NCBI RefSeq assembly: GCF_026004055.1
Contig: NZ_BPIJ01000001.1
Coordinates: forward strand, 682,001-746,000
Source of the DNA: Meiothermus sp.
GTDB lineage: Bacteria; Deinococcota; Deinococci; Deinococcales; Thermaceae
Direction: 5' to 3'
DNA: 64,000 bases
Positions 52,136 through 55,655 of the stretch are shown here, in pieces (within the stretch, counting starts at the first letter, position 1; every line of letters begins with the position of its first letter). The notes under the pieces are model-generated. The model searched no databases. It was not told the origin of the DNA and worked only from the letters and a program-made list of their open reading frames with translations. Made by a program: the position numbers and the translations under genes.

Positions 52136-54135
<2,000 letters not shown>

Positions 54136-54190: not shown

Positions 54191-54219
54191 AAACAAAAAC
54201 TCGAGGCCCTTACCTCGAG
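54191..54219 (-). terminator. trp attenuator terminator
   Basis: Minus-strand CTCGAGG/CCTCGAG stem with a 6-base loop followed by TTTTTG and three more T, between the leader peptide stop (54251) and trpB (54135). An alternative pairing of the CGCTGG at about 54227-54232 with CCAGCG in the leader codons could pre-empt it when ribosomes stall at the Trp codons. Confidence 0.75.
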
Positions 54220-54250
54220 AAAAGCCCCAGCGCCGTCTTGAAAGCTGCGC

Positions 54251-54316
54251 TTAGGGCCACCCACGCCACCAACGCTGGTGGTGCCATTTGTAGCTGCGCG
54301 GGGTACGAATCCGCAT
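54251..54316 (-). CDS. trpL: trp operon leader peptide
   Basis: A 21-codon frame (ATG 54316-54314, TAA 54253-54251) with four Trp codons at positions 11, 16, 17 and 20, including a tandem pair, near its end. The ATG is only 9 bases past a -10 box, so translation is probably leaderless. Four Trp in 21 residues, directly before a hairpin with a T tract and trpBA, is the signature of ribosome-stalling attenuation: scarce Trp-tRNA stalls the ribosome at Trp16-17 and favours read-through. Confidence 0.85.
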   Translation of the reverse strand: MRIRTPRSYKWHHQRWWRGWP

Positions 54317-54325
54317 GTTGCCCAA

Positions 54326-54354
54326 AGGGTAGCAAGACCCAGGGCTTCCGTCAA
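54326..54354 (-). promoter_or_regulatory. trp operon promoter
   Basis: Minus-strand TTGACG (54354-54349), spacer 17, TACCCT (54331-54326); the start falls at about 54319, just ahead of the leader peptide ATG. Confidence 0.6.
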
Positions 54355-54425
54355 GACAAGCACCAGACTGGAGGTTTTCCCTGCACCCTGAGCAAGAGCA
54401 AGCGGGGTAGGGTAAAGTTGTCTGG

Positions 54426-55655
54426 ATGGAACCTTTTGCAGACTACCTCGATAAGCTGGCAAAAGTAGCGGTGCAGGTGGGGCTTGGGCTAAAGGCCGGT
54501 CAGGAAGTGGTCATTACCGCCCCCATCGAGGCCGTGCCCCTGGCGCGCAAGATTGCCGAGTATGCCTACCGGGCCGGAAGCCCGCTGGTGACGGTGCTCT
54601 ACGACGACGACGCTGCCACCCTCCTGCGCTTTCAGCACGCCCCCGAAAGCGCCTTCGAGCACGCTCCCAAGTGGCTTTTTGAGGGGATGGCCGCAGCCTT
54701 TCGCAGCGGAGCAGCCCGCTTGCATATTGCAGGCAGCGACCCCAACTTGCTGCGGGGACAAAACCCCGAGCGCGTAGCCCGGGCCAACCGCGCCCGCTCG
54801 ATGGCCTACCGCCCGGTACTCGAGCTGATTACCTCGTTCGAGGTCAACTGGACCATCGTGGCCTATCCGCATCCGGCCTGGGCCCAAACGGTTTTTCCCA
54901 ACCTCGAGCAGCAGCAAGCAGTACAAAAGCTCTGGGATGCCATTATCAAGGCCTCGAGGCTCGACACCCCCGACCCTGTGGCTACCTGGCAGGCCCACAA
55001 CCGGCAGCTTTCCGAACGGGTGGCCTACTTGAACCACAAGCGCTATAGCGCCCTGCATTTCAAGGGCCCCGGCACCGACCTGCTCGTCGGGCTGGCCGAC
55101 GACCACGTCTGGGCCGGAGGGGCCGGTCAGGCCAAAAATGGGGCGGTTTGCAACCCCAATATCCCCACCGAGGAAGTATTTACCGCCCCCCACAAAGACC
55201 GCGTCGAGGGCTACGTGCGCAGCACCAAGCCGCTGTCTTACCAGGGCAGTTTGCTCGAGGACATCGAAGTACGTTTCGAAAAAGGCCGGGTAGTGGAGGC
55301 GAAAGCCAAAACCGGCGCCGATGTGCTGCACAAGGTGTTGCAGACCGACGAGGGGGCCAGAAGCCTGGGCGAAGTGGCCCTGGTACCGCACTCCTCACCC
55401 ATCGCCCAGACGGGAATTCTCTTCTACAACACCCTTTTCGACGAAAACGCGGCCAGCCACATTGCGCTGGGGCAGGCCTACAGCGAGTGCATTCGGGGTG
55501 GCAGCCAGCTAAGCCCCGAGGAACTTGCCGCCAAAGGGGCCAACAGCAGCCTAATTCACATAGACTGGATGATCGGCTCGAGCCAGATCGACGTTGACGG
55601 GATCAGCCCGTCCGGTCAGGCCGAGCCGCTCATGCGCGGGGGGGAGTGGGTATAG
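54426..55655 (+). CDS. M29-family aminopeptidase (AmpS/aminopeptidase T type)
   Basis: 409 residues. Dimetal aminopeptidase of the thermophilic M29 family: a beta-alpha N-terminal domain (1-200) and a metal domain with NIPTEEVFTAPHKDRVEG (Glu and His ligands), LGEVALVPHSSPI (Glu), LFYNTLFDENAASHIALGQAYSECI (Asp/His) and HIDWMIGS (His-x-Asp). All expected ligands are visible. It removes N-terminal residues from peptides in the cytoplasm. It is divergent from the trp operon, with a TAGGGT box 13 bases before the ATG. Confidence 0.93.
   Translation: MEPFADYLDKLAKVAVQVGLGLKAGQEVVITAPIEAVPLARKIAEYAYRAGSPLVTVLYDDDAATLLRFQHAPESAFEHAPKWLFEGMAAAFRSGAARLHIAGSDPNLLRGQNPERVARANRARSMAYRPVLELITSFEVNWTIVAYPHPAWAQTVFPNLEQQQAVQKLWDAIIKASRLDTPDPVATWQAHNRQLSERVAYLNHKRYSALHFKGPGTDLLVGLADDHVWAGGAGQAKNGAVCNPNIPTEEVFTAPHKDRVEGYVRSTKPLSYQGSLLEDIEVRFEKGRVVEAKAKTGADVLHKVLQTDEGARSLGEVALVPHSSPIAQTGILFYNTLFDENAASHIALGQAYSECIRGGSQLSPEELAAKGANSSLIHIDWMIGSSQIDVDGISPSGQAEPLMRGGEWV

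Follow-up and report, generated by a model that had tools for sequence, protein, structure and literature searches.

A short leader peptide conserved upstream of trpB in Meiothermus and other Deinococcota

The trpBA leader locus

We examined a window of 64,000 nucleotides from the genome of Meiothermus sp. (contig NZ_BPIJ01000001.1, positions 682,001 to 746,000), in which a short leader region lies between trpB and an M29 aminopeptidase gene that runs divergently on the plus strand (54426-55655). A first-pass annotation had listed here a promoter, an ATG, a 21-codon frame rich in Trp codons, a hairpin with a T run and then trpB; all of these could be read from the sequence, and the whole feature, whose strand had been left unstated, lies on the minus strand. 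In the direction of transcription, its parts are the following.

54326..54354, minus strand: predicted promoter, TTGACG (54354-54349), 17-nt spacer and TACCCT (54331-54326), read from the sequence
54251..54316, minus strand: leader ORF MRIRTPRSYKWHHQRWWRGWP, 21 codons, stop codon TAA at 54253-54251; peptide profile E = 2.4e-11, one copy in the genome
54266..54281, minus strand: hairpin H1, CCACCA:TGGTGG, inside the Trp codons; folds in most relatives
54223..54258, minus strand: hairpin H2, 5' arm overlapping or abutting the leader stop codon; compensatory changes in 5 of 12 pairs
54191..54219, minus strand: hairpin H3, intrinsic terminator CTCGAGG..CCTCGAG plus TTTTTGTTT, from the terminator scan
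52921..54135, minus strand: trpB, tryptophan synthase beta, from the ORF, Pfam PF00291 (PALP) and synteny with trpA
52136..52924, minus strand: trpA, tryptophan synthase alpha, from the ORF and Pfam PF00290 (Trp_syntA, E = 3e-80)

The ATG at 54316 stands 9 nt past the TACCCT -10 box and opens a frame with four Trp codons, two of them in tandem. The terminator scan placed the H3 hairpin at 54219-54200 and its T run at 54199-54191, and because no other gene ends at H3, it can act on the trpBA leader transcript only. Short repeats of the gatagtccatag type occupy 54190-54140, between the terminator and trpB, and are expanded in several Meiothermus genomes (L005, L007, L010 and L011).

Start of the leader transcript

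The near-leaderless initiation proposed in the first-pass annotation is supported by the geometry of the promoter: in 80 of 80 relatives, the start codon is preceded at a distance of 5-10 nt, mostly 6 nt, by a TAnnnT box, against a background of 3.4% of all ATGs in the window. The box guided the choice of start codon in families f4 and f5 but not in the Thermaceae, so that the f1 set (39 genomes) provides the cleaner count for the box-to-start distance. Within the window, 22 ATG frames of 10-35 amino acids hold at least three Trp codons, and the trpB leader alone has a TAnnnT box 5-10 nt upstream. The leader mRNA is thus predicted to be leaderless or nearly so. This is an ordinary way to start here, given that approximately 40% of genes in the phylum Deinococcota are predicted to be leaderless (PMC3160421) and that a leaderless trpL is known in Sinorhizobium meliloti (PMC7298713). 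The neighbouring M29 aminopeptidase gene (54408-54426, plus strand) is seemingly leaderless too, with TAGGGT 12 nt before its ATG.

Distribution of the leader among relatives

At the search threshold, TrpB was detected in 50 of 50 Thermaceae genomes, with G017 giving weak paralogue-like matches only. Every readable Meiothermus-like genome carries an ORF of 18-30 amino acids upstream of trpB, of the form MRxRTPRSYKWHHQRWW.. (in G019, the copy lies on a second contig). The Thermus-like version reads MRxRTPFA[YF]KxRHGRYR, often with one Trp or none, and in several Thermus-like genomes the ORF has been lost or frameshifted and is therefore dispensable there. A search with the peptide profile gave a single strong match per genome (E about 1e-8 to 1e-11), and the same profile detected the leader, with trpB downstream, in two more families: f4, which we infer to be the Marinithermaceae, and f5. 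Just 5' of trpB, Thermaceae, Marinithermaceae-like and Trueperaceae-like genomes share the consensus (R)xRTPR[SA][FY]K..HQR[W/F].

A degenerate DNA pattern of the peptide core, scanned against 84,980 species, returned 27 matches, all labelled as Deinococcota or lower taxa within it, with contig names that include Trueperaceae and further Thermaceae-labelled metagenome-assembled genomes. A same-strand trpB follows in 25 of the 25 pieces with enough DNA, within 230 nt in 24. In the 25th, from a Trueperaceae genome (G096, L104/L121), an EamA-family transporter gene separates the leader from trpB, so that the leader still comes first in the operon; the EamA-family gene is itself a candidate amino acid exporter under this leader. 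Where the leader is missing beside trpB, the profile search found no copy elsewhere in the genomes searched; where it is present, it has a fixed place ahead of trpB or the trpB operon.

Families f2 and f3 have no trpB leader. In several of these genomes (L138-L145), trpB follows closely behind a TAnnnT box, and an upstream CTAGAC..GTCTA palindrome could be a repressor site. Most f2 and f3 rows group together in a TrpB tree, read without a determined root, and the leader occurs on both the Thermales and the Trueperaceae-like sides, a pattern compatible with an ancestral leader that was lost several times.

Selection on the leader peptide

We aligned 80 leader peptides from three families over a 13-residue core and found no insertion or deletion within it. 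R0 and T are kept in 80 of 80 peptides, R(-2) and P in 79 and K in 78; Trp occupies core position 7 in 45 peptides and core position 12 in 51, the latter being aromatic in 75 of the 80. In-frame pN/pS is 0.15 in the Meiothermus-like group, 0.28 in the Thermus-like group, 0.28 in f5 and 0.46 in f4, and rises to 1.27-3.95 in the shifted sense frames (1.3-4.0 in the Meiothermus-like group); one antisense frame is also low, as expected from the coincidence of its wobble positions.

The constraint persists where tryptophan is set aside. With all Trp codons removed, pN/pS is 0.32 in the non-Thermus set, and it is 0.17 in Thermus-like copies that lack a core Trp; seven Thermus-like peptides have no Trp at all and Marinithermaceae-like ones often have one. 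Since pN/pS stays low even without the Trp codons, it is the peptide, and not these codons, that is the conserved object. On these alignments, the short leader peptide is conserved at the amino-acid level across families of Deinococcota. Conservation of the Trp codons, on which the first-pass annotation had staked its reading beforehand, holds in nearly all Meiothermus-like genomes and fails outside them, where the other residues of the peptide persist.

RNA structure and Trp-codon attenuation

The first-pass annotation had read the locus as an enteric trpL system. The combination that it claimed, of a translated leader peptide with an intrinsic terminator before trpB, is supported and is conserved in relatives. 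Under classical attenuation, uncharged tRNA-Trp would stall the ribosome at W11 or W16-W17 and so block H3. Two features speak for such a scheme: four Trp codons, a terminator and trpB stand in the right order, and nearly all Meiothermus-like genomes retain the Trp codons. Outside the Meiothermus-like group the peptide is kept and the Trp codons are not, which speaks against it.

Comparison of 14 Meiothermus-like genomes predicted three hairpins: H1 over the Trp codons, H2 around the end of the leader ORF and H3 as the terminator. Covariation upstream of trpB, which the annotation had suggested as a check, was found in part: 5 of the 12 pairs of H2 show compensatory changes, the H1 and H3 stems are invariant over the 14 genomes so that covariation is uninformative for them, and the proposed antiterminator has none. 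We discounted the invariance of the H3 stem as evidence for a switch because its CTCGAG word is about six times over-represented in the window. This palindromic word, which also makes the H3 stem, occurs there 133 times, with 20.7 occurrences expected from base composition.

The antiterminator had been proposed as a pairing of CCAGCG (54278-54273) with CGCTGG (54232-54227), both on the minus strand. It was rejected: the pairing does not overlap the terminator stem, which is left free, no compensatory change supports it in the 14 genomes and 11 of these 14 relatives cannot form pair 16:69. H3 formed in folds with the ribosome absent and also with a ribosome masked on W11, W16, W17 or the stop codon (P at least 0.71, the exception being G008 at the stop codon, 0.17). 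Enteric trpL logic did not hold up at this leader, as H3 forms in nearly every ribosome state and a conserved antiterminator was not found among these genomes. In RNAs cut before the 3' arm of H3, pairing of its 5' arm is 0.50-0.85 with the ribosome at the stop codon versus mostly 0.07-0.35 on W16, and runs through a weak hairpin between the H2 3' and H3 5' arms. Such a shift of H3 5' arm occupancy with ribosome position favours classical attenuation; the modelled folds leave room for a kinetic, his-like switch and are no evidence for one. The single-sequence fold z-score of the leader, -1.8, is unremarkable.

The trpE leader as an internal control

In this Meiothermus genome, trpE is preceded by a leaderless Trp leader of its own, MVRTVHVKGGWWPG (G000:C2, about 633816-634004, L051). 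Among 28 trpE leaders compared, the tandem Trp and P-G-stop are kept in at least 25 and the remainder is variable. The same folding method gave an antiterminator for a stall on the first Trp and the terminator for a ribosome at the stop codon in four of four species; this leader is the genome's real trpL-type attenuator. A classical switch is thus visible to this method, which shows none at trpB, a further point against classical attenuation there.

Leader peptides of attenuators are usually viewed as codon counters whose sequence is irrelevant. Here, two leaderless Trp leaders of the same bacteria can be compared directly within one genome: at trpE, only WW-P-G-stop is kept, antiterminator and terminator are mutually exclusive and the peptide behaves as a codon counter, whereas the trpB peptide is kept for its sequence even without Trp codons. 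A pure codon-starvation attenuator at trpB appears unlikely to us, and less likely than a nascent peptide that acts in cis.

Output devices across lineages

Of 18 Meiothermus-like leaders (g1 and g2), 17 have an intrinsic terminator, with five weaker candidates among 18 Thermus-like ones and none in the g3, f4 and f5 leaders, and the lack of them in f4 and f5 again disfavours classical attenuation. Two other outputs were considered and rejected. For a Shine-Dalgarno sequence opened by a stalled ribosome, the mean change in accessibility is small (0.23 to 0.27 in f5, 0.27 to 0.36 in f4). For Rho acting at a rut site, many f5 genomes have a C-rich spacer but the Thermus-like spacers are G-rich, and a rut-like spacer is not common to all families. 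Comparison of terminators, Shine-Dalgarno accessibility and C-rich spacers yielded no conserved switch structure linking arrest to output. Thermus-like loci (for example, L026 and L034) have a TAGGAT box shortly 5' of trpB, which may be a second promoter from which transcription would bypass the leader.

A proposed cis-acting nascent peptide

Given that relatives keep the amino-acid sequence and not the Trp codons, the leader is probably not just another textbook tryptophan attenuator but a regulatory peptide at work inside the ribosome. We favour, with moderate confidence, the reading that the trpBA leader ORF encodes a cis-acting regulatory nascent peptide that acts near its conserved aromatic end and probably reports tryptophan. 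Counting against it are the loss of the ORF in some Thermus-like genomes, the lack of sequence shared with known arrest peptides or of a Pfam or NCBIfam match, and the failure to find a conserved switch structure. Comparison of sequences shows translation in frame, selection on amino acids, a constant leaderless geometry and position in cis, covariation of H2 and a strong terminator in one branch only. Beyond these findings, we infer the arrest, the response to tryptophan, the direction of control and the influence of H2 on H3 as parts of a mechanism that could run as follows.

The N-terminal RxRTPR[SA][FY]K and the C-terminal HQR plus aromatic residue (in most cases Trp, close to the stop codon) would lie together in the ribosome exit tunnel, where both parts would delay or halt the ribosome as it reaches, or has just passed, the conserved aromatic position, which would carry the tryptophan signal. 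In Meiothermus-like bacteria, the paused ribosome would overlap the stop-codon hairpin H2 next to H3, and in this way, we propose, peptide synthesis would be coupled to premature termination; their extra tandem Trp codons probably add sensitivity to codon starvation. A wider view, which we offer tentatively and consider possible rather than probable, is that RTPR[SA][FY]K..HQRW marks a phylum-specific class of Trp-responsive arrest peptides on a biosynthetic operon, leaderless and ancestral to Thermales and Trueperales, whose output device was swapped between lineages.

A constitutive leaderless upstream ORF that does no more than adjust trpB expression or mRNA stability, whatever the metabolite level, would fit a phylum in which leaderless genes are common and the loss of the leader in some Thermus-like species; it seems improbable given how strongly one particular peptide sequence is conserved and given the Trp and aromatic bias at its end, before a Trp gene. 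A small peptide functioning in trans, with trpB as its usual neighbour, would suit a very basic, conserved product under purifying selection and has a precedent in peTrpL of Sinorhizobium (PMC7298713), but among the searched genomes no copy turned up apart from trpB or the trpB operon, and the product is too short for a typical stable protein; we consider this the least probable account. Confirmation of arrest by the cis-acting peptide would establish a new regulatory nascent peptide in thermophiles and, as Thermus ribosomes are well studied, structural work on it would be direct.

Relation to known leader systems

The trpB leader matched no entry in Rfam, Pfam or NCBIfam, and the open-licence literature that we searched describes no trpB leader in Thermus, Meiothermus or Deinococcus, although older subscription papers may contain one. 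With enteric trpL (Rfam Trp_leader), the Meiothermus-like version alone shares a short ORF with tandem Trp codons, hairpins and a terminator before trp genes; it differs in being leaderless, in its conservation of the peptide and not the Trp codons, in the lack of a mutually exclusive antiterminator and in having no match to the Rfam family. The trpL of S. meliloti (peTrpL/rnTrpL) is likewise a leaderless Trp-codon upstream ORF before a trp gene (PMC7298713), but its mutually exclusive attenuator is established and precedes trpE(G), whereas the leader described here precedes trpBA and has another peptide sequence.

The regulatory peptides TnaC and SpeFL differ from the trpB leader, with which they have no sequence similarity, in that it serves a biosynthetic rather than a catabolic operon and has no conserved rut site, and its arrest is a proposal. 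The Trp12/Asp16/Pro24 pattern of TnaC is absent from the trpB leader peptides, which have no conserved Asp or terminal Pro, and no sequence is shared with known arrest peptides. TnaC and SpeFL are, like the trpB leader, short leader peptides with conserved residues spread along their length and an end near the stop codon, and nascent-chain control is what we propose for the trpB leader too; TnaC shows that nascent peptides can sense tryptophan (PMC8429421). As the trpB leader has no sequence kinship to TnaC, we regard the resemblance as a likeness of working and not as membership of the same family.
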